Part shown: piece by piece, positions 35,731-47,270 of the stretch
Layout of the letters: each line of letters opens with the position of its first letter
How positions within the stretch are numbered: position 1 is the first letter of the stretch
Assembly (NCBI GenBank): GCA_016218085.1
Contig: JACREY010000007.1
Span: forward strand, 62,001-126,000
DNA length: 64,000 nt
Source of the DNA: Ignavibacteriota bacterium
GTDB taxonomy: Bacteria; Bacteroidota; Ignavibacteria; Tepidaquicellales; Tepidaquicellaceae
Reading direction: 5' to 3'
Made by a program: the position numbers and the translations under genes
Notes under the pieces: generated by a model
Told to the model about the DNA's origin: nothing
Databases searched by the model: none
The model's input: the letters and a program-made list of their open reading frames with translations, nothing else

Positions 35731-37083
35731 ATGAAAAAATTATTTTTGATTTTTACAGCACTGCTGATTCCGTGTTTACTTTTTTCCCAGAATACAAAGA
35801 GCGGAGATGATGCGAAGGGAATATTCAAGTATGAGAACTTCCAGAAGCCTGATGAATGCGGCTCTTCCTGCCATACGGATTTTTATGCGCAATGGAAGCA
35901 GATGATGATGTCGAAGTGCTACACGCACGAATGGGATGAGATAGAATATTTCAAGCTGGCAGTTCCGCACGCGGAAAAGGAGTCAAAGGTAGCGGGAGTG
36001 AAGGCAGGCTGCAACGGATGCCACGCACCTGTTTCTTTTATGGCGGGAGACGTGCCGCCACCGAAGCCGAATATGAATTCGCGCGCAAACGAATCGGTTT
36101 CTTGCGACGTCTGCCATTCTGTAACTGGATTTACGGGAGACACTCCGTATAACTTCAATTTCATTTCAAACCCGGGTAATGTAAAGTACGGCAACCGTGA
36201 GAGCCTGAATTCACCTTCACACGATGTAAAGAAAATAGATTTTCTGTCCAAGGCGGAATTCTGCGGCACCTGCCATAATGAGAAATCACCTTTCGGCGCG
36301 TGGGTAAAAGCAACTCACCTCGAGTGGAAGGACGGACCATATTCCAGGGAAGGGGTTCAGTGTCAGAACTGCCACATGCCGCGGACACCGGGAATAAGCT
36401 CTGCGATGGGAGAGTTTCATCAGGATGTTGCACAGCACCTTTTTCACGGAGCGCACGACCCCGGTAAGGTGAAGGGAACAATTGAGCTGAGAATACATCC
36501 CGAAATGGAGGATGCAGCTCCTGGCGAGCAGTTAAAATTTACGGTAGTGCTTTATAATGCGAAGACGGGGCACAAGTTTCCGACGGGTTCGGCTGAGGAA
36601 AGAATGCTGTGGCTGCACGTGGAAGCGGTTGATGCGAAGGGAAACGTATTTCATTTAAAAGTCGATAAAAAAGGATTTCCCGGAGAAGAATTCACAATAT
36701 CTTCGGATGTTCTTGCTTACCAGGATATGGGAGTGCCATTAGGAATTACCGATTTCAAGGGAATACAGCGCGACGGGATTCCGTTTGGAGACAGGATTTT
36801 CAGGATGCCATATCTCGACCCTGTGGGACGAATGACAATACAGCAGTGGAATACGGCTTCATTCGGAGTGGATTACAGGATTGGGCCGAGGGAGACAAAA
36901 ACCGAGACATTCACGTGGGTTGTTCCGGATAATATTGAAATCGGAAAACTTAAAGTAAAAGCGGTTTTGAATTATCAGAAACTTCCGTTACCAGTTGCGG
37001 ATTACCTGGGTGTTCCGAAGGATGAATCCGAAATAATTGAAGTAAATTTTCATCAGACTTTTGTTGAAATAGTGGATGATTAA
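35731..37083 (+). CDS. Periplasmic multiheme cytochrome c (c554-like)
   Basis: 450 residues with a signal peptide ending near LLFSQ. Four canonical CXXCH heme sites (CNGCH, CDVCH, CGTCH, CQNCH) lie in the first half, preceded by CGSSCH, a CX3CH site in the usual first-heme context of this family (CxxCHxxxYxxW). Several extra histidines could act as distal ligands. After about residue 255 comes a non-heme beta-rich domain (PGEQLKFTVVLYNAKTGHKFPTGS). The pattern matches multiheme c554/c-prime-type electron carriers. A strong AGAGGAG site precedes the ATG. The one-heme barrel gene follows after 31 bases, suggesting one electron-transfer module. Redox partner and substrate are unknown. Confidence 0.88.
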   Translation: MKKLFLIFTALLIPCLLFSQNTKSGDDAKGIFKYENFQKPDECGSSCHTDFYAQWKQMMMSKCYTHEWDEIEYFKLAVPHAEKESKVAGVKAGCNGCHAPVSFMAGDVPPPKPNMNSRANESVSCDVCHSVTGFTGDTPYNFNFISNPGNVKYGNRESLNSPSHDVKKIDFLSKAEFCGTCHNEKSPFGAWVKATHLEWKDGPYSREGVQCQNCHMPRTPGISSAMGEFHQDVAQHLFHGAHDPGKVKGTIELRIHPEMEDAAPGEQLKFTVVLYNAKTGHKFPTGSAEERMLWLHVEAVDAKGNVFHLKVDKKGFPGEEFTISSDVLAYQDMGVPLGITDFKGIQRDGIPFGDRIFRMPYLDPVGRMTIQQWNTASFGVDYRIGPRETKTETFTWVVPDNIEIGKLKVKAVLNYQKLPLPVADYLGVPKDESEIIEVNFHQTFVEIVDD

Positions 37084-37114
37084 TTTTAAGAATATTTTAA
37101 AAGAGGATATCATA

Positions 37115-38275
37115 ATGAAAAAAATTTTTATAGCATTAATAATATTTATATTTTCTTATTGCCTGATAAATGAAGCTGGAGCGATACCCGCTTTTGCGAG
37201 AAAGTATAATATGTCCTGCAACGTCTGCCACTCTCCTTTCCCGAAGTTGAAGCCGTATGGTGAGGATTTTGCGGCAAACGGATTCCAGCTTCCGGATAAG
37301 GAGCCGGCCAGATACTTTAAAAAAACGGGTGACGACCTGCTGATGCTGATGAGGGAGATTCCGGTTGCGTTGAGATTTGAGCTTTTCGGACAGTACGAAA
37401 ATTCAAGGGATGTAAATCCGGATTTAAGAACACCTTACATTCTGAAGTTTATGTCGGGTGGAAATATTTACAAGGATATTTCATATTACTTTTATTATTT
37501 CATCAGCGAGCGCGGAGAAATGGCGGGGATTGAGGATGCGTTTATTATGTTCAATAATGTATTTTCAAATAAATTAGACCTTGATTTATACGCAGGGCAG
37601 TTTCAGGTTTCGGACCCGCTTTTTAAAAGAGAGCTGAGGATGACTCAGGAGGATTACGCTATATACACAGTCAAGCCCGGAAGAACTCTTGCTTCACTGA
37701 AATACGACAGAGGGATTATGGTGACCTATGCAGCTCCTACAAAGACAGATTTCACGCTCGAGCTGCTCAGCGGTAACGGTTTGGGCACGGGAGAGACATT
37801 TGATGCGGATAAGTATAAGAATATAATGTTCAGGGCTTCGCAGGAAGTCACTCCTTTTTTAAGAATCGGCGGATTCGGATATTACGGAAAGGAGCAGCCT
37901 GATTCTGTTTCGAATGAAATGTATATGGCAGGCGCAGACCTGACTTTAGGAAACGACAAAGTGGAACTGAATGCACAGTATGTTTACCGAAGCGACATTA
38001 ATCCCGGAATGACACAGGTCAAGCCGACAGAAAGAGTAAAAACAAAGGGTGGATTTGTTGAACTGCTGATTTCCCCGCAAGGAGATAAAAGCAGGGTAAC
38101 GGGCTCGCTTTTGTACAATTATGTTGATTCGGATTTTAAGGAATTGAATTACCAGAGTTATACGGGAAGCATCAATTACCTGATTGCAAGAAATCTCAGG
38201 CTTTCCGGTGAATACACATATATCAAGGACACAAAAACTTCCAGATTCTCACTTGGTATTATTTCAGCTTTCTGA
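37115..38275 (+). CDS. Outer-membrane beta-barrel protein with an N-terminal c-type heme site
   Basis: 386 residues from the ATG at 37115, chosen over the longer frame from 37076 because it gives a signal peptide (MKKIFIALIIFIFSYCL) with an AGAGGA site 9 bases upstream. The mature start has a single heme motif CNVCH in the context FARKYNMSCNVCHSPFPKLKP, followed by about 330 residues of alternating strands typical of a porin and a C-terminal phenylalanine (IISAF). The fusion of one heme to a barrel suggests an electron or small-molecule gate in the outer membrane. It is the second gene of the cytochrome operon and is followed by a terminator. Confidence 0.85.
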   Translation: MKKIFIALIIFIFSYCLINEAGAIPAFARKYNMSCNVCHSPFPKLKPYGEDFAANGFQLPDKEPARYFKKTGDDLLMLMREIPVALRFELFGQYENSRDVNPDLRTPYILKFMSGGNIYKDISYYFYYFISERGEMAGIEDAFIMFNNVFSNKLDLDLYAGQFQVSDPLFKRELRMTQEDYAIYTVKPGRTLASLKYDRGIMVTYAAPTKTDFTLELLSGNGLGTGETFDADKYKNIMFRASQEVTPFLRIGGFGYYGKEQPDSVSNEMYMAGADLTLGNDKVELNAQYVYRSDINPGMTQVKPTERVKTKGGFVELLISPQGDKSRVTGSLLYNYVDSDFKELNYQSYTGSINYLIARNLRLSGEYTYIKDTKTSRFSLGIISAF

Positions 38276-39290: not shown

Positions 39291-39983
39291 ATGAATAAAG
39301 TCGTAAAAAGCGTCCGTGAGGCAATTGAGGGCATTAAGGACAATATGACAGTCATGTTCGGAGGATTCGGTCTTTGCGGAATTCCTGAAAATGTTATAAG
39401 AGAACTAGCCAAAACCAAAATAAAAGGTCTTGTATGCATTTCAAACAATTGCGGAGTAGATGATTTCGGTCTTGGTTTCCTATTAAATAACCATCAGATT
39501 AGGAAAATGGTATCATCTTATGTCGGCGAAAATGCGGAGTTTGAACGCCAGATGCTGAGCGGCGAGCTGGAGGTGGAGCTTATTCCGCAGGGCACTCTAG
39601 CAGAAAGAATAAGAGCAGGCGGCGCTGGAATACCTGCATTTTTTGTACCGGCAGGATACGGTACGGAAGTAGGAAACGGAAAGGAATCCCGTGAATTCAA
39701 CGGGAAGATGCATCTGCTCGAACAGGCGCTTACTGCAGATTTTGCAGTTGTAAAAGCCTGGAAGGGAGACACTGCAGGAAACCTAATTTACAAATACACA
39801 GCAAACAATTTCAATAATATGATGGCTATGGCGGGTAAAGTCACGATAGCAGAAGTAGAAGAGCTGGTGCCAGCCGGCGAGCTTGATCCGAATTTTATAC
39901 ATACACCCGGTGTTTTTGTTCAGAGAATATTCAAGGGTGTTGATTACGAAAAAAGAATTGAACAATTAACCTTAACAAAATAA
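39291..39983 (+). CDS. scoA: Succinyl-CoA:3-ketoacid CoA-transferase subunit A
   Basis: 230-residue alpha subunit of the enzyme that moves CoA from succinyl-CoA to acetoacetate or a related 3-ketoacid. It shows the CoA-binding glycine motif [11 protein letters not shown] near residue 25, and the family blocks [12 protein letters not shown] and [16 protein letters not shown], ending with the QRIFKG region. Length matches the separate alpha subunits of bacteria. The beta subunit starts 6 bases after its stop, and the lyase-like gene follows, so this is an operon for use of ketone bodies or of acetoacetate from leucine. Confidence 0.94.
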
Positions 39984-39989
39984 TCAGTT

Positions 39990-40646
39990 ATGGCATTAGA
40001 CAAAAACCAGATAGCAAAAAGAATTGCAAGCGAGCTGAAAGACGGCGATTATGTAAACCTTGGAATAGGCATACCAACACTTGTGGCAAATTTTATTCCC
40101 GAAAATATTCACGTTACGCTTCAATCGGAAAACGGAATGTTAGGGATGGGTCCCTTTCCAACGATGGAAACCGTTGATGCCGACCTGATTAATGCGGGTA
40201 AGCAGACAATTACTTACCTTCCGGGTTCATCATTTTTCGATTCGGCAACGAGCTTTGCGATGATAAGGGGCGGACACATAGACATCACAATTCTCGGTGC
40301 TTTCGAAGTATCGGAAAAAGGCGATATAGCAAGCTGGAAAGTTCCTGGAAAACTTATTAAAGGTATGGGCGGAGCAATGGACCTTGTTGCTTCAGCAAAG
40401 AATATTATAGTAGCGATGCAGCATACCAACAAGGAAGGGCAGTCAAAACTGCTCAGGAAATGCACTCTCCCGCTTACAGGAGTAAACTGCGTGAAGAGAA
40501 TTGTGTCCGACCTTGCAGTACTGGATGTTACGGAGAAAGGATTTAAATTAAAAGAGCGCGCACCCGGCGTAACTCTGGAGCAGATAAAAACTGCTACTGA
40601 AGGAACGCTAATAATTGAGGGTGATATTCCGGAAATTAAATTTTAA
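39990..40646 (+). CDS. scoB: Succinyl-CoA:3-ketoacid CoA-transferase subunit B
   Basis: 218-residue beta subunit. It contains NLGIGIPTLVANFIPE and the catalytic glutamate E47 in QSENGMLGMG, which forms the covalent CoA thioester in this family, then GGHIDITILGAFEVS and PLTGVNCVKRIVSDLAVLD. It pairs with subunit A, from which it is separated by 6 bases; the next gene begins 9 bases later. Acetoacetate as acceptor is inferred from the family and from the lyase-like neighbour. Confidence 0.94.
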   Translation: MALDKNQIAKRIASELKDGDYVNLGIGIPTLVANFIPENIHVTLQSENGMLGMGPFPTMETVDADLINAGKQTITYLPGSSFFDSATSFAMIRGGHIDITILGAFEVSEKGDIASWKVPGKLIKGMGGAMDLVASAKNIIVAMQHTNKEGQSKLLRKCTLPLTGVNCVKRIVSDLAVLDVTEKGFKLKERAPGVTLEQIKTATEGTLIIEGDIPEIKF

Positions 40647-40655
40647 AATTATTAA

Positions 40656-41663
40656 ATGAATTATCCGAAAAAAGTAGTAATTGGAGATATAACAGTGCGG
40701 GACGGATTTCAGCACGAAGAAAAATATATACCGCTCGAGGCAAAGCTCTGGCTTGCGGAGCAGCTGATACTAGCAGGTTTCAAGCATATTGAAGTAACGA
40801 ATCTGGGCAATCCGACAGGTATGCCTCAGTTCAAAGATGCGGATGAATTGATGAAGAAAATCAGAAACAGCAAAAAGGTTGCAAACCTGCTGGGCAGCGT
40901 TTCTCTTACATGCGTGACCATAAGGGAAAAAGCTGTTGAAAGAGCCATTAAAAACAAGCTCGAAGGATTCGGTCCTGACAGGATTTTACTGATGGTTTCG
41001 ACAAGTGAATCGCACCACAGAAAAAATTCGGGTCTCTCGCTCGACGAATATTGGAAGATGTCGGAAAAATACATAAAGATGGCGCGTGAAGCAGGCATAA
41101 AAGTAAACGGCACTGTAAGTACAATCTGGGGTTGCCCAATCGAAGGGCCGACAGAAATGAAAAAGGCAATCGAGTTTGCCAAACGCTGGTTTGATATTGG
41201 TGCAAGCGATGTAGAGCATGCAGACCACGACGGCTCAGCATCTCCTGACAGGATTTACAGATATTTTTCGATGCTGATGGATGAATTCCAGAATCCGCAG
41301 AAACACATAGTTCATCTGCATACCACACGCGGATGGGGACTTGCAAATGTTCTTGCCGCATTGCAGGCAGGAATGACAAATTATGAAGCCACAATGGGAG
41401 GACTTGGCGGACAGCCTGCAAACTTTGTAAGCGGGGTGCCGGTAAGCGGTACGGGTGATTATTATTACGCAGATCCGCTGATAACAGGTCTTGTTTCCAC
41501 AGAAGATATGGCAGTGATGATGGATGAGATGGGAATAGAAACAAATCTCGATATCGACAAGATACTTCAGATAGGAAAAATGGTTGAAAGGATAGTCGGC
41601 AGACCGCTGCGTTCAGAAAGCATTAAGACAGGAAGAATCCCAAAAGCAATGACCGGCAGATAA
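40656..41663 (+). CDS. HMG-CoA lyase-like DRE-TIM metallolyase lacking the usual catalytic cysteine
   Basis: 335 residues, one TIM-barrel domain. It has the substrate and metal motif RDGFQ (R15, D16, Q19) and the metal histidines H220 and H222 in HLHTTRG, as in 3-hydroxy-3-methylglutaryl-CoA lyase. The glycine-rich loop that normally reads GLGGCPYAxGASGN here reads GLGGQPANFVSG, so glutamine 253 stands where the catalytic cysteine is expected; the loop is followed by about 20 extra residues before the conserved STEDM helix. It is co-transcribed with scoAB, which fits making acetoacetate from a hydroxyacyl-CoA. True HMG-CoA lyase activity is therefore uncertain; a related acyl-CoA lyase is possible. 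Confidence 0.85.
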   Translation: MNYPKKVVIGDITVRDGFQHEEKYIPLEAKLWLAEQLILAGFKHIEVTNLGNPTGMPQFKDADELMKKIRNSKKVANLLGSVSLTCVTIREKAVERAIKNKLEGFGPDRILLMVSTSESHHRKNSGLSLDEYWKMSEKYIKMAREAGIKVNGTVSTIWGCPIEGPTEMKKAIEFAKRWFDIGASDVEHADHDGSASPDRIYRYFSMLMDEFQNPQKHIVHLHTTRGWGLANVLAALQAGMTNYEATMGGLGGQPANFVSGVPVSGTGDYYYADPLITGLVSTEDMAVMMDEMGIETNLDIDKILQIGKMVERIVGRPLRSESIKTGRIPKAMTGR

Positions 41664-41732: not shown

Positions 41733-43256
41733 TTACTCTTTTTCTTCAAAAATATATTCGAAGACTTTGCTCATATCATTCCATTCGAGTTTATGAATAT
41801 CCCAGTGGCGGGCAGGAGCTTTTCTCTCAAGTTTTTGTGCAATAATCATTTTTTCTCCGTCGGTCCTTAAATTTATCATTCCGTATACTGTTACAATCCT
41901 CTCCTTTTTTTTGCCTTTTGGAACTTTACTTAAATCAAAGAATTCCTTACTTGAACGGGCAAGTTCAGTACTGAAGATCATTGGTCTTTCACCTCTGCTG
42001 AATTTCCCTATCGTACCAAGGCTGTCAGGCCGGGGATGGCAGTAAGATTCATCATCACCGCTTGATATTACAGTTGCAACCGGATTTACCGACCTTAAGA
42101 AATCAACCGAAAAATCGTGGCTGCCGTGATGGCACGCTTTTGCAACGTCTGATTGAAAGTATTGTCTAGCTTTGTTAATTACTTCTTTAATTTCATTTTT
42201 CAGTTCTTCAATTTTTGCTTCGTCTGTTTCTTCTTTCAAAAATCTGTTAATCTTCTTTACATCGGCTCCTGTATATTTTTCCAATAGATATTCTTCGGCT
42301 TTTTTATTCAAATCCCCACCAATGATAATTCTCGCTTTTCCGATTTTAAGCATTAATATAACCGAATGTCCGTTTTTAGTTGGGCCCACGCCGTCAAAAT
42401 ACCTGAGCACCTTTTCGCCATCAACAGTTTCTGTTATGGGTCCCAGAATATCAATTTCCAGATTTCCGTCCTTATAAAACTTATTATTTTCATCTCCGGA
42501 CAGAGCCTCGAATTTTACATTTTTTTGATTATTAAGCGCTGACAATAAAGTCTTTTCATAAAGTGATTCTTTTTCGACTTTTTTCAAATGTGCTTTTGCT
42601 TTTTTGTCCGTGTCAAATATTTCAGTTAAATATTTATTCTTGCCGGCTTTGACTTTCTTGCCCAGTTTTTCCTCCTCTTCCCTGTCTCCCATTTCGAATA
42701 TTCCGTTATGATAAACATAATCGAAACTTAATTTCTGCTTCAGGCCTTTTGGCTGTTCAAAGACTTTTAGAAATCCCTTGTAATGATCGCTGTCAGGATG
42801 AGATATAACTGCTTTTAGGGCTGGCGGCGGAATCTTTGATTTTGCAAGGTTGAATCTCCATTTGAGGAACCTGAACATATTATCTCCGACACCCGCATCG
42901 ATAATATAATGCTCGTCTTTCGGAGTGACAATATGGCATCCGTCACCCTGACCGACATCGACAAAATTGACTTCCAGAATTCTATCAGCCTGAATATCTG
43001 TCTCAGGCAAGATATATCCGTCTTCGTTTCTGCAACGCACCTTTATGTATGTTTTTTCATCCTCGGTTATTGTTTCAAAATTTTTATTCTTAATATAAAC
43101 TTTAATATAATCACCGAACAGCAGCTGCTTTACAAATGAAAACTTTTTCTCTCCTTTTTTTGATTTTTCCCCTTTTTTTTCTTTGTAATTGAAAAGCTTT
43201 ACAAAGGGATATGAGGCAAAACCATACCCCTGCTTTCTTACTTGTTCTAGGCTCAT
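41733..43256 (-). CDS. Solitary ComEC-type metallo-beta-lactamase-fold protein
   Basis: 507 residues, no signal peptide or membrane helices. An N-terminal part (about 1-90) with a Lys/Glu-rich insert looks like an SH3-type barrel (GDYIKVYIKNKNF, then VRCRNEDGYILP). The hydrolase domain has the entry motif NFVDVGQGDG, the metal motif SHPDSDHYKG, GGDLNKKAEEYLL and CHHGSHDFS, exactly the set found in the C-terminal nuclease-like domain of the DNA-uptake protein ComEC. The ComEC channel domain is absent, so uptake is unlikely; nuclease or other phosphodiesterase activity is inferred. A 558-base AT-rich gap separates it from the dsrC operon, which is divergent. Confidence 0.85.
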   Translation of the reverse strand: MSLEQVRKQGYGFASYPFVKLFNYKEKKGEKSKKGEKKFSFVKQLLFGDYIKVYIKNKNFETITEDEKTYIKVRCRNEDGYILPETDIQADRILEVNFVDVGQGDGCHIVTPKDEHYIIDAGVGDNMFRFLKWRFNLAKSKIPPPALKAVISHPDSDHYKGFLKVFEQPKGLKQKLSFDYVYHNGIFEMGDREEEEKLGKKVKAGKNKYLTEIFDTDKKAKAHLKKVEKESLYEKTLLSALNNQKNVKFEALSGDENNKFYKDGNLEIDILGPITETVDGEKVLRYFDGVGPTKNGHSVILMLKIGKARIIIGGDLNKKAEEYLLEKYTGADVKKINRFLKEETDEAKIEELKNEIKEVINKARQYFQSDVAKACHHGSHDFSVDFLRSVNPVATVISSGDDESYCHPRPDSLGTIGKFSRGERPMIFSTELARSSKEFFDLSKVPKGKKKERIVTVYGMINLRTDGEKMIIAQKLERKAPARHWDIHKLEWNDMSKVFEYIFEEKE

Positions 43257-43814
43257 AATTTTAATTTTTAAAATTTTTGAAAAATAATTAATATTTGTAA
43301 ATGTAAAACCGAAGCCTGATATAAATCTGAGTATAAAAAACTGTTTGGATGACAGATAAAAGTGGGTGAAATATAAGATAAGTTTATTATTTTGAGGATT
43401 CTCACCCGAACAGTCTTAGTTCTTTCCCCTGCTAAATTTTTTATATTTTAAAAAATTAATAATGTAATTTTTATTAAAAGGGAAATACATTTCGAAAAAT
43501 AAATACTTCTTCATTTGTAAAACATCTTTTTTTAAACTATAAAAATTATTATAAATTATCAATATATATTTAGCTTTACCTAATAATAAATATATACGGT
43601 AATCATTTATTTTCGGATAATTATAGTTTTGTAGTGAAATTTCGTACTATAAATAGTGTTCTTTGAATTGGTTTTGATCTGATAACCTATAGTAAATGTT
43701 TTATAATAATAATTTATAATTTTCATATCACGGTAATATTGTGCAGTTTTTTTTGAATTCTTTATTATTTTTTAAAATATTAACTTGTTAAAAATAAAAT
43801 CTAATATTCACAAT
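43257..43814. other. AT-rich intergenic region upstream of dsrC
   Basis: 558 bases without a coding frame I can support. It is the shared upstream region of two divergent units and should hold the dsrC promoter. The only distinct sites I see are the 12-bp palindrome at 43646-43657 and long A/T tracts. The longer open frame of dsrC extends back to a TTG at 43785. Confidence 0.6.
43646..43657. promoter_or_regulatory. 12-bp palindrome upstream of dsrC
   Basis: ACTATAAATAGT, two 5-bp half-sites around a central AA. The reverse complement occurs at 35235-35246 upstream of the cytochrome operon, the only other copy I noticed. It lies about 160 bases before dsrC. It could be an operator, but AT-rich palindromes also arise by chance. 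Confidence 0.25.
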
Positions 43815-44123
43815 ATGGAAGTTGATGGAAAAGAATTCAAAGTCGATGGAGACGGCTTTTTGCAAGATCCTTACATCTGGAATGAAGAAGTTGCAGCTTT
43901 ATTTGCCAAATTTGACGGGATAGGAGAGCTTACCGAAAAGCACTGGGCAATTGTAAAATTTATACGCAAGAACTGGGAAGATACGGGAATGGCACCGATG
44001 ATACGCTCTATTTGTCAAACAACCGGTGTTAAACTTAAAGATATATATCAGCTGTTTCCGCTTGGTCCGGCTCGTGGAGCTTGCCGAATAGCCGGTTTAC
44101 CAAAACCTGATGGCTGTGTTTAG
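43815..44123 (+). CDS. dsrC: DsrC/TusE-family sulfur carrier
   Basis: 102 residues from the ATG at 43815, chosen because the conserved domain starts there (VDGKEFKVDGDGFLQDP). It is a small cytosolic carrier whose flexible C-terminal arm holds two redox cysteines, C90 in RGACRIAGL and the penultimate C101 in PDGCV, spaced exactly CX10C. Both being present marks true DsrC, able to form the intramolecular disulfide or trisulfide that DsrMK-type complexes reduce, rather than single-cysteine relatives. It leads a four-gene row; the membrane cytochrome starts 15 bases after its stop. No dsrAB or tusBCD genes are in the window, so its sulfur source may be the cysteine desulfurase in the same row. 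Confidence 0.93.
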   Translation: MEVDGKEFKVDGDGFLQDPYIWNEEVAALFAKFDGIGELTEKHWAIVKFIRKNWEDTGMAPMIRSICQTTGVKLKDIYQLFPLGPARGACRIAGLPKPDGCV

Positions 44124-44138
44124 AAAATTTTTACTTTT

Positions 44139-44762
44139 ATGAAATTCTATCAATTGGTTTCATTTACTGCTTTTCTGATTTGTTTGATAAGCCTGTCTTA
44201 CCATTTTTTCAGATTAGTCAAATTGGGTTCGCCAAAAGATTATTCCAGCAAGATTGGTAACCTGTATTCAGCAATCCCCTATTCATTTATCGGGGCAATG
44301 AATCCGCTGAAGAAGGAATCTGCATATTTGCATTACCCAACATATGCAGCAGGAATACTATACCATTCCGGTACTTTTATATCCTTTATTTTATATTTTT
44401 TATTCCTTTTCAGTTTCAGTTTTTCTGATTTTTTACAATATATTCTGATTTGCGGATTGGCAGTATCCATTGCAAGCGGTATTGGCATTTTCATAAAACG
44501 GGTATCATTAAAAAAACTCAGATATCTTTCCTGTCCGGACGACTACATTTCAAATCTTCTGGTAACAGCATTTCAGATATTTACATTACTTGCAACAATA
44601 TCAGAATCTAATGCTACATATTATAATATTGGTGCAGCATTATTATTCCTGTATTTACCGCTTGGTAAGCTTAAACATTCTCTGTACTTCTTTGCTGCAC
44701 GTTTTCATCTTGGCTACTATTACGGATGGCGGGGAATTTGGCCAGTTAAAAATCATAAGTAG
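44139..44762 (+). CDS. NarI/DsrM-like membrane cytochrome b subunit
   Basis: 207 residues with five likely membrane helices. It matches the heme-b membrane subunits of the nitrate-reductase-gamma family that serve DsrK/HmcF/TmcB-type proteins: histidines in LHYPTYAAGILYHSGTF and KLKHSLYFFAARFHLGYYYG, the last block being the family's closing FxxRxxxGxxxGxRG pattern. It is shorter than DsrM (usually above 300 residues), closer to HmcE/TmcC size. It should exchange electrons with menaquinone. It lies 15 bases after dsrC and 5 bases before the iron-sulfur gene, which makes a two-subunit membrane complex very likely. Confidence 0.85.
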   Translation: MKFYQLVSFTAFLICLISLSYHFFRLVKLGSPKDYSSKIGNLYSAIPYSFIGAMNPLKKESAYLHYPTYAAGILYHSGTFISFILYFLFLFSFSFSDFLQYILICGLAVSIASGIGIFIKRVSLKKLRYLSCPDDYISNLLVTAFQIFTLLATISESNATYYNIGAALLFLYLPLGKLKHSLYFFAARFHLGYYYGWRGIWPVKNHK

Positions 44763-44767
44763 AAAGA

Positions 44768-46060
44768 ATGGATAATTTTAAAAATAAAAAGGATAAAGCA
44801 ATCCGGATTCTTTCCGAACCAAAAGACAGTAAGTTAATAACACACTTAAACAGTTGCGTACATTGCGGATTGTGTGCAGAAAGTTGCATGTACTATCTGG
44901 CAACGAACGATGAAAAATATATTCCCGCTAAGAAAGTAGACATTATTTCTTCAATTTACCAGCGGTATTGTACTTTTACTGGGAAATATTTTCCCGTACT
45001 TACTGGTTCAAAAGAGCTGGATGAAGAAACTAAAGATGAGATGATTGACCTTCTTTTCGGAGCCTGCACGTTATGCGGACGCTGTACAAAACATTGCTCA
45101 ATAGGGGTGGATATTTCATATGTTGTTAGAACGGGAAGACAAATGCTCTCGGAAATGGATATGGTACCGGCAACCCTACAATCAACCGTTAATGCAGCTG
45201 TTCAAACCGGGAATAATATGTCAATTCCTACTGAAGAATTTACTGATACATTAGCCTGGCTGGAAGACGAGCTTAAAAATGAAGTAAACGACCCGATGGC
45301 TGCTATACCTCTGAATGTAACAAACACAAATATTCTTTATACATTGAATCCCCGTGAACCGAAATTTTTCCCGTTATCAATTTCTGCAATGGCTAAAGTT
45401 TTTTATGCTGCAAAGGAAAGCTGGACATTATCCACAATAATGTATGATGTTACCAACTATGCATATTTTACATCAAACAACGAAGAAGCAATAATCATTG
45501 CTCAAAGATTATACGATGAAATGCTGAATTTAAATTCTAATCGCTGTATACTTGCTGAATGTGGTCACGGCTCGAGAGCGTTCCGTTGGGAAGCTCCAAA
45601 TTATCTCCGTAAGAAATTTCCATTCGAAGTAATTACGGCTGTCGAACTTCTTGCTGAATATATAAGCAGCGGAAGGATAAAGCTCGATAAAGAATTGAAT
45701 AAAGAAGTAATGACCCTTCACGACCCTTGCAATTTAGTGAGAGAAGGAGGAGTTATTGAACAGCAAAGATATATTATGAAGAATACGGTATGCAACTTCG
45801 TCGAAATGACACCTCACGGTACTGAAAATTTCTGCTGCGGGGGCGGAGGGGGCCAGCTGGCAATGAGCGAATACAATGAACGCAGAATGAAAATAGCAGA
45901 GATAAAAGCAGAACAGATTCGCAGAACAGGAGCAAAGGTCGTGGTTACTCCGTGCCACAATTGTGTTGACCAGTTAATGCAAATAGATAACAAGTTCAAG
46001 CTGGGTGTAAAGATAAAAACTCTGGCTGAGATAGTAGCCGATGCAATAATTCTTGAATAA
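44768..46060 (+). CDS. DsrK/HdrD-like iron-sulfur protein
   Basis: 430 residues, cytosolic face of the membrane complex. Two [4Fe-4S] motifs lie near the N-terminus (CVHCGLCAESC and CTLCGRCTKHC). The C-terminal half has a complete CCG-type site, C-X34-CCG-X37-CXXC, beginning at HDPCNLVR and ending at CHNC. This holds the special cluster that in heterodisulfide reductases and DsrK attacks disulfides. The first of the two CCG repeats found in HdrD is reduced to ECGHG. With DsrC encoded two genes upstream, the natural substrate would be the oxidised DsrC arm. It follows the cytochrome b gene by 5 bases. Confidence 0.9.
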   Translation: MDNFKNKKDKAIRILSEPKDSKLITHLNSCVHCGLCAESCMYYLATNDEKYIPAKKVDIISSIYQRYCTFTGKYFPVLTGSKELDEETKDEMIDLLFGACTLCGRCTKHCSIGVDISYVVRTGRQMLSEMDMVPATLQSTVNAAVQTGNNMSIPTEEFTDTLAWLEDELKNEVNDPMAAIPLNVTNTNILYTLNPREPKFFPLSISAMAKVFYAAKESWTLSTIMYDVTNYAYFTSNNEEAIIIAQRLYDEMLNLNSNRCILAECGHGSRAFRWEAPNYLRKKFPFEVITAVELLAEYISSGRIKLDKELNKEVMTLHDPCNLVREGGVIEQQRYIMKNTVCNFVEMTPHGTENFCCGGGGGQLAMSEYNERRMKIAEIKAEQIRRTGAKVVVTPCHNCVDQLMQIDNKFKLGVKIKTLAEIVADAIILE

Positions 46061-46106
46061 TAAACTTTTAAAATTTACAAATACTTAAACCAACTATTTT
46101 TCTTTT

Positions 46107-47270
46107 ATGAATAATTTAATATATCTTGATAATTCAGCAACCACATATCCAAAACCTGACAGTGTTTATAAATTTATGGACAGTTTTTACAGGGAGCATG
46201 GGGTAAATCCCGGAAGATCCGGATTCGACGCTGCACTTGAGGCAGAAGAAATTGTAATGAATACACGTAAACTGTTGACTGAGTTCTTTAATGCAAGAAG
46301 CGATAATAACAGACTGACTTTCTCTTACAATGCTAGCGACTCTCTTAATATGATTATTCAGGGATTGGTCGAAAAAGGAGATCACGTAATAGCAACAATG
46401 CTCGAGCATAATTCTGTATTGCGTCCGCTGTATCACATGGAAATGAATGAAGTCATAAAAACAACTTATGTCAGTTTTGATGAAAAAGGATATATAAATC
46501 CCGATGATATAAGAAAAGCAATACAGAAGAATACGAAAATGGTTGTAATGAACCATTGTTCTAACGTTATCGGCACTATCCAGCCTGTTGCAGAGATTGG
46601 AAAGATTTGTAAAGAAACGGGCGTATTGCTTGTAGTGGATTCCACGCAAAGTGCAGGTGCCATTCCAATCGAAATGCAGGCAATGGGAATAGATGTTTTA
46701 GTGTTTACCGGACATAAATGCCTGATGGGTCCTACAGGCATCGGCGGGTCATATGTAATGGAAAACGTACCTGTGAGAGGTACCCGATTCGGAGGAACAG
46801 GAGTCCGCTCCGCACAGAAAACACATCTTGAAGAGTTCCCGTATAGGCTTGAATGCGGAACGCTGAACCTTTTAGGTGTAGCAGGACTTAACGCCGGCAT
46901 AAAATGGATTTTGGAAAACGGAATTAAAACACTGCACGATAAGGAAATGATTCTTTGGGATAAGCTACGCAAAGGAATTCAAAGAATAGAAAACGTAATA
47001 ACATACTGTGCGGAAAGCATAGAAAATCACAACCCGGTATTAAGCTTCAATATCAAGGGTTTTGATTCCGGTGATGTGGGCACGATGCTGGACGTTGATT
47101 ACAACATCGCCTGCCGTACAGGTTTGCAATGCGCACCGCTAGTGCACGTTGGTTTGGGAACTGATAAAATACACGGTACAGTGCGCTTAAGTGTTGGTCC
47201 TTTTAATACGGAAGAGCATATTGACACGGCCATTCAGGCAGTAAAAGAAATAGCAGAACTTAGGAAATAA
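46107..47270 (+). CDS. Cysteine desulfurase family protein (class V aminotransferase)
   Basis: 387-residue PLP enzyme expected to take sulfur from cysteine as a persulfide, leaving alanine. It has the N-terminal YLDNSATTYPKP, the substrate histidine region MLEHNSVLRP, DSTQSAGAIPI, the PLP lysine in FTGHKCLMGPTGIGG and the persulfide cysteine in CRTGLQCAPLVH. The pattern fits the smaller desulfurase group outside the IscS and SufS operons. There are no scaffold genes (iscU, sufU) nearby. It is the last gene of the dsrC row, 46 bases after the iron-sulfur gene, so sulfur delivery to DsrC is a reasonable inference. Confidence 0.9.
   Translation: MNNLIYLDNSATTYPKPDSVYKFMDSFYREHGVNPGRSGFDAALEAEEIVMNTRKLLTEFFNARSDNNRLTFSYNASDSLNMIIQGLVEKGDHVIATMLEHNSVLRPLYHMEMNEVIKTTYVSFDEKGYINPDDIRKAIQKNTKMVVMNHCSNVIGTIQPVAEIGKICKETGVLLVVDSTQSAGAIPIEMQAMGIDVLVFTGHKCLMGPTGIGGSYVMENVPVRGTRFGGTGVRSAQKTHLEEFPYRLECGTLNLLGVAGLNAGIKWILENGIKTLHDKEMILWDKLRKGIQRIENVITYCAESIENHNPVLSFNIKGFDSGDVGTMLDVDYNIACRTGLQCAPLVHVGLGTDKIHGTVRLSVGPFNTEEHIDTAIQAVKEIAELRK

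Follow-up and report, generated by a model that had tools for sequence, protein, structure and literature searches.

A conserved gene row of DsrC, a DsrMK-like pair and a cysteine desulfurase, found without DsrAB in Ignavibacteria and Bacteroidales

The gene row and its four products

The stretch of DNA considered here, called the window, comprises 64,000 nucleotides of the forward strand of contig JACREY010000007.1 (positions 62,001 to 126,000) from an Ignavibacteriota bacterium (assembly GCA_016218085.1), and at 43815-47270 it carries four plus-strand genes separated by gaps of 15, 5 and 46 bases. These are dsrC (43815-44123), which encodes a DsrC/TusE family sulfur carrier of 102 amino acids when read from its ATG (the mechanical open reading frame begins upstream, at a TTG at 43785); M (44139-44762, 207 amino acids), a probable membrane cytochrome b subunit of the NarI/DsrM/HmcE/TmcC type; K (44768-46060, 430 amino acids), an HdrD/DsrK-type CCG protein; and D (46107-47270, 387 amino acids), a class-V pyridoxal phosphate (PLP) cysteine desulfurase family protein. 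The row, referred to below as C-M-K-D, had been proposed with these gaps and these protein types in an initial annotation made from the sequence, and both the coordinates and the family matches agree with that proposal. It is a real and conserved operon of known families that has apparently not been described. Scans for promoters and terminators at the locus gave no clear excess over shuffled sequence.

The DsrC protein scored above the cut-offs of both PF04358 (118.5 bits) and TIGR03342 (101.5 bits) and aligned over its full length to solved DsrC structures. Its C-terminal arm has the CX10C arrangement, with C90 (codon 44082-44084) and C101 (codon 44115-44117), the latter followed by a terminal valine, and a third cysteine, C67, lies at 44013-44015; all three are invariant in the 67 of 67 operon copies. 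Based on the family models and the two arm cysteines, the protein belongs to the two-cysteine, or redox, type and not to TusE, the model of which (NF008562) it matched with 66 bits against a cut-off of 191. The second arm cysteine has been regarded as almost exclusive to organisms that have DsrAB (Stockdreher et al., PMC3397948), and the 294 genomes of the class that formed our DsrC search sample offered a means of comparison. Both arm cysteines were present in 10 of 10 genomes with DsrA and in 8 of 8 with the operon, and a one-cysteine arm was found in 32 of the 33 genomes having neither, the single exception being a dsrC that adjoins a K-type gene. Because two cysteines accompany DsrA (10/10) and the operon (67/67), as opposed to one nearly everywhere else (32/33), the second cysteine tracks a CCG-type K partner and not DsrAB. 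This comparison is the strongest sequence evidence for redox chemistry between DsrC and the M-K pair, and it argues for a DsrC that is a redox partner of that pair and not a plain TusE relay.

K belongs to the HdrD/DsrK-type CCG superfamily, being above the cut-offs for PF02754 (the CCG domain, 42 bits) and PF13183. It has two 4Fe-4S motifs (C30/33/36/40 and C100/103/106/110) and one complete CCG site, made up of C321 (45728), C356-C357 and C396xxC399 (ending at 45964), and all of these cysteines are invariant across the 80 relatives that we analysed. Its scores against the equivalog models TmcB (293.9 bits, cut-off 735), HmcF (282, cut-off 750) and DsrK (NF045796, 232.8 bits, cut-off 400) place it outside each of them. 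M was more diverged, having no match in Pfam and weak ones in NCBIfam (HmcE, 30 bits against a cut-off of 275; TmcC, 21 bits against 240). For its AlphaFold model (pLDDT 87), the closest fold was that of NarI (Foldseek probability 1.00, E 0.04; VIA Z 10.1), but chance alone can bring helical bundles to Z scores of about 13, and so this likeness is suggestive and not decisive. Four conserved histidines, H22, H65, H76 and H180, are candidate heme b ligands, H76 being present in 74 of 74 copies and H180 in 75 of 75. The model of M also fits the N-terminal part of EtfD, and by sequence K has a single solved relative, the CCG part of the same protein (9ojn), such that one menaquinone-linked protein of solved structure is matched at one end by M and at the other by K (PMC13083937).

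D is a member of TIGR01977 (438.7 bits, cut-off 377), and its Schiff-base lysine K204 (46716-46718), H101 and candidate persulfide cysteine C342 (47130-47132, in the active loop) are all invariant. The second best NCBIfam match was the selenocysteine lyase SclA, to which D does not belong (326.7 bits against a cut-off of 525). In a quick tree, the operon copies and the unlinked copies of D formed one clade, separate from other desulfurases, with one lone D-like gene as an exception within it. The idea that D is the only desulfurase of the cell was rejected, as the genome of the window has other strong desulfurase-type genes (C18, with 503 bits, and more). A D-like gene that is 59% identical was also seen in genome G008 (L242:1544-2707), which lacks K and DsrC, and no sulfur genes were recognised close by.

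Conservation and co-inheritance of the operon

A scan of the genome collection with an alignment of K produced 223 relatives, the best 80 of which were analysed; these were from metagenome-assembled genomes (MAGs) of Bacteroidota, namely Ignavibacteria and Bacteroidales, of anoxic sites such as lakes, sediments and the rumen. About 70 genomes besides that of the window have the genes in the order C-M-K-D, with differing flanks. When row membership was counted by tblastn, C and M were each found upstream of K in 73 of 75 loci, and D followed K within 400 bp in 66 of 73, so that a lack of the desulfurase beside dsrC in relatives, which the initial annotation had named as grounds for refutation, did not come true. 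In one locus D lies at a distance of 2.3 kb, and a single K was without partners. At locus L118, D appeared to be absent, an appearance that was rejected since D begins 24 bases past K. Seven further loci from two families of the class likewise had C-M-K-D, or whatever part of it the contig holds, and their flanks varied among genera and families. That the four genes adjoin by chance was rejected by this conserved order amid unrelated flanks. One locus labelled Alphaproteobacteria (L125) nests among Bacteroidota and has an operon nearly identical to that of a Bacteroidales record (L126), and is probably from a mislabelled MAG.

Among the 294 genomes of the class, the K clade was present in 10 and the D clade in nine of those 10, the tenth having a K that is cut by the end of its contig; one K-less genome had a D-like gene. 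The co-occurrence of K and D gave a Fisher value of 2.5e-15, a calculation in which shared ancestry is ignored. Joint gain or loss of the two genes is likely, because the pair is present together or absent together across several genera of one family (f1). In addition, the pairwise distances of K and D were correlated (0.79), which shows co-inheritance and is not by itself a sign of interaction. Judged from its tree and distribution, D forms a dedicated clade whose occurrence goes with that of the operon. A draw across the phylum found the operon in two of 395 genomes, and so its occurrence is patchy; the draw says nothing about where it is densest.

Absence of DsrAB, known systems and neighbouring genes

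The initial annotation had noted that neither dsrAB nor tusBCD was in sight, and the first of these absences could be extended from the window to whole genomes. A siroheme reductase (PF01077, NIR_SIR) was found in none of nine operon-bearing Ignavibacteria, including the genome of the window, and DsrA (TIGR02064) in none of 50 further K-carrying genomes, nearly all of which have the row. In these searches the positive controls gave the expected matches, and DsrA, in contrast, was above its cut-off in 17 of a further 74 genomes of the class that have DsrC. A DsrAB or other siroheme reductase hidden elsewhere in the genome was therefore rejected, and the row does not belong to a DsrABCMK pathway, DsrAB being absent from all operon-bearing genomes tested. 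As for the Tus proteins, the window's genome assembly (98% complete) had no match to the DsrE family or to TusA (TusB/DsrH and separate DsrE2 models were not part of the search), and therefore the usual Tus relay is missing, which bears out the second absence to that extent.

Several known systems have parts of this arrangement. Like the row, the DsrC/DsrMK(JOP) system has a two-cysteine DsrC and a CCG-type K, together with an M of the NarI type, to which the M of the row probably belongs, and a proposed exchange of electrons between quinone and the DsrC arm (PMC10504309, PMC6470260), but here K is at 233 bits against the DsrK cut-off of 400, no DsrAB or siroheme sulfite reductase was found, no DsrJOP was seen at the locus, and the usual fourth gene is a desulfurase. 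The nearest relatives of K by model are TmcB and HmcF, and those of M are HmcE and TmcC, from the TmcBC and HmcEF complexes of Desulfovibrio, which are proposed DsrC partners; however, K and M are far under the equivalog cut-offs, the unit of the window includes dsrC and a desulfurase, and none of its recurring neighbours was recognised as a further Tmc or Hmc subunit. The Tus relay of Escherichia coli (IscS-TusA-TusBCD-TusE-MnmA) resembles the row in having a desulfurase as a possible sulfur source and an acceptor of the DsrC/TusE family, and differs from it in its TusA and DsrE-family members, which are missing from the window's genome, its single arm cysteine and its lack of a membrane redox complex. 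HdrDE and the mycobacterial EtfD also combine a NarI-like membrane part with a 4Fe-4S/CCG part to join a cytoplasmic partner to a quinone or quinone-like pool (PMC13083937), whereas here the partner is presumably DsrC instead of ETF or CoM-S-S-CoB, K has one complete CCG site and, unlike in EtfD, M and K are separate genes. Lastly, the SQR-DUF1641-DsrC-DsrE2 clusters of the same class have a DsrC without DsrAB, but that DsrC has one arm cysteine (the second site being A, T or S) and no adjoining M-K pair. Examples (L036, L039, L043, L046, L053 and L060) with SQR-like, DUF1641-like, DsrC and DsrE2-like genes and a one-cysteine arm represent what looks like the commonest DsrAB-less setting of DsrC seen in the class. 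Other M-K pairs also exist (L244:8231-10907 and L243:7869-10313): in genus g45 of family f16, the pair adjoins genes for DsrE2 and a MerR-like protein, and a canonical DsrC was not found; in family f19, a pair with a longer K (583-586 amino acids) adjoins a PAS-like protein.

The neighbours of the operon in other genomes include a protein of about 82 amino acids with five invariant cysteines (CPNxxxC...YC...CxR...FCPDFxxPD) that is encoded directly 5' of dsrC in 30 of 80 loci (e.g., L106:4783-5028 and L099:4765-5016); it has no Pfam or NCBIfam match, no usable fold match in the PDB and no convincing match in the window. Another class-V PLP enzyme, about 500 amino acids long, is encoded close to the operon in 14 loci, in many of them directly 5' of dsrC (e.g., L103:3466-4983), and its best NCBIfam match is SufS at 125 bits, far below the cut-off. 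A copy with 63% identity to this enzyme is present elsewhere in the window's genome (L247:7884-9347), right after a gene that was judged by eye to encode an Rrf2/IscR-like regulator. Several lake Bacteroidales (L103, L105, L111, L119, L123, L124, L127 and L128) have a larger cluster with a CRP/FNR-type regulator, a NifX-like protein, the 500-amino acid PLP enzyme, C-M-K-D, DsrE2, TusA, FlpD and an HdrA-like protein, and some of these clusters have SQR-like, DUF1641-like, additional DsrC and DsrE2 genes further upstream. Within the window itself, a CXXCH-rich multihaem-like cytochrome and a protein that has a CXXCH at its N-terminus and a long part resembling a beta-barrel are encoded at 35731-38275 with an overlap of a few bases, and at 39291-41663 and 41733-43256 there are two CoA-transferase-like subunits and an HMG-CoA-lyase-like gene, after which comes an opposite-strand ComEC-like metallo-hydrolase. 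None of the CoA-transferase-like, HMG-CoA-lyase-like and ComEC-like genes recurs beside the operon in relatives.

A possible sulfide-releasing route and its alternatives

Based on the gene order, its conservation, the co-occurrence of D and K, the absence of DsrAB and the retention of both arm cysteines, the interpretation that we favor, tentatively and at slightly less than an even chance, is that C-M-K-D is a DsrAB-independent DsrC redox operon, fed by D and linked to quinol, that releases sulfide without need of a sulfite reductase. D would take sulfane sulfur from cysteine onto C342 and pass it to the penultimate arm cysteine of DsrC, C101, a loading step for which there is a precedent in that the penultimate cysteine of DsrC was persulfurated in vitro by E. 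coli IscS with cysteine, and also by sulfide alone (Stockdreher et al. 2012, PMC3397948). C90 would then attack the C101 persulfide, releasing sulfide and leaving a C90-C101 disulfide, and the arm could be re-reduced by electrons that pass from menaquinol through the putative cytochrome b of M and the 4Fe-4S clusters of K to its CCG site, a step that follows the accepted DsrC-DsrMKJOP scheme (PMC6470260, PMC13232883). The net reaction would be cysteine plus menaquinol to alanine, sulfide and menaquinone. The transfer from D to DsrC, the release of sulfide, the quinol as donor and the direction of the electrons are all parts that we infer.

Several points weigh against this interpretation. The sequence does not settle in which direction the redox reaction runs, and without coupling, the reduction of a disulfide or trisulfide by menaquinol is energetically unfavourable. 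The transfer of sulfur from D to DsrC is a predicted step. DsrJOP, as mentioned, was not seen at the locus. Five loci with C, M and K have no adjacent D, but in four of those five genomes a D orthologue is on a separate contig (684-714 bits), a point in favor of the interpretation. The row of some lake Bacteroidales comes with SQR, DsrE2, TusA, FlpD and an HdrA-like protein, and there the sulfur could derive from sulfide or sulfane and not from cysteine. Because SQR, DsrE2, TusA and HdrA-like genes adjoin the operon in those genomes, the sulfur may not come from D alone in every carrier.

The same clusters bear on an oxidative alternative, which we regard as unlikely, in which DsrC would gather sulfide or sulfane, M and K would oxidise its thiols or persulfide and deliver the electrons to menaquinone, and D would mainly supply or remove carrier sulfur, making the row a route by which the oxidation of sulfide or thiols feeds the quinone pool. 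The M-K reaction is energetically easier in this direction, and several of the lake Bacteroidales operons are in or beside the clusters of SQR, DUF1641, a second DsrC, DsrE2, TusA, FlpD and HdrA-like genes under a CRP/FNR-type regulator; however, such partners are not near the operon in the window or at most loci, the carriers include rumen-derived Bacteroidales MAGs that are presumably strict anaerobes, and a role for a cysteine desulfurase then becomes hard to place. A thiol-disulfide hub is a distinctly less probable idea, in which M, K and DsrC would connect menaquinone to the thiols of the cytoplasm by electron exchange alone, carrying no sulfur atom, and D would be co-inherited for the assembly or repair of the Fe-S clusters of K. 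That K has three cluster sites, that D does not adjoin C, M and K in some loci, and that DsrC has proposed partners besides DsrAB, e.g., Tmc, Hmc and Flx-Hdr (PMC6470260), all suit such a hub, but the other strong desulfurase-type genes of the window's genome could supply Fe-S clusters without need of D, D is tied to the operon, and C101 is kept with C90 in every copy.

D and DsrC could act like IscS and TusE and feed a tRNA or cofactor thiolase, with M and K merely resetting oxidised DsrC, as DsrC and TusE are of one family and the sulfur source of Tus is a desulfurase (PMC3397948), but this is very improbable given that TusE-type proteins lack the second arm cysteine that is invariant here, that no TusA or DsrE-family match was found in the window's genome, and that the operon, present in so few genomes of the phylum (2/395), is unlike a housekeeping thiolation path in its patchiness. 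Least of all do we expect that D is a selenocysteine lyase and that the row handles selenium instead of sulfur. The founding member of TIGR01977, EF_2568, was judged to be a probable selenocysteine lyase (PMC2276186), and SclA was the second best match of D, if below its cut-off, yet at 80 loci none of the recurring neighbours was recognised as belonging to a selenium gene family (SelD was not searched for), and the extra neighbours that were recognised belong to sulfur-transfer families.

Should the favored sulfide-releasing route apply, fermentative and sediment Bacteroidota, rumen Bacteroidales too, may dump menaquinol electrons on cysteine-derived sulfane sulfur to produce sulfide, a cysteine-fed DsrC respiration without sulfite reductase that would be an undescribed respiratory or redox-balancing route; we rate this broader proposal as rather doubtful. 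No description of the C-M-K-D operon was found in the open-access literature, with subscription reviews on DsrC being outside that scope, and as far as the literature searched goes, the pairing with a dedicated desulfurase in the absence of DsrAB is new. Its relevance stems from the fact that a DsrC arm with two cysteines has so far been read as an indicator of sulfur metabolism based on DsrAB (PMC3397948). The operon is also a caution against taking matches to dsrC, dsrM or dsrK for signs of sulfate or sulfite reduction. The operon separates the redox step of DsrC with M and K from sulfite reduction, and so provides a simple system for testing the exchange of electrons between them, and it would point to sulfide formation or thiol respiration that surveys of dsrAB miss in Bacteroidota of the rumen and of lake sediments. 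Overall, the row suggests that sulfur and electrons are moved in a manner not described before.

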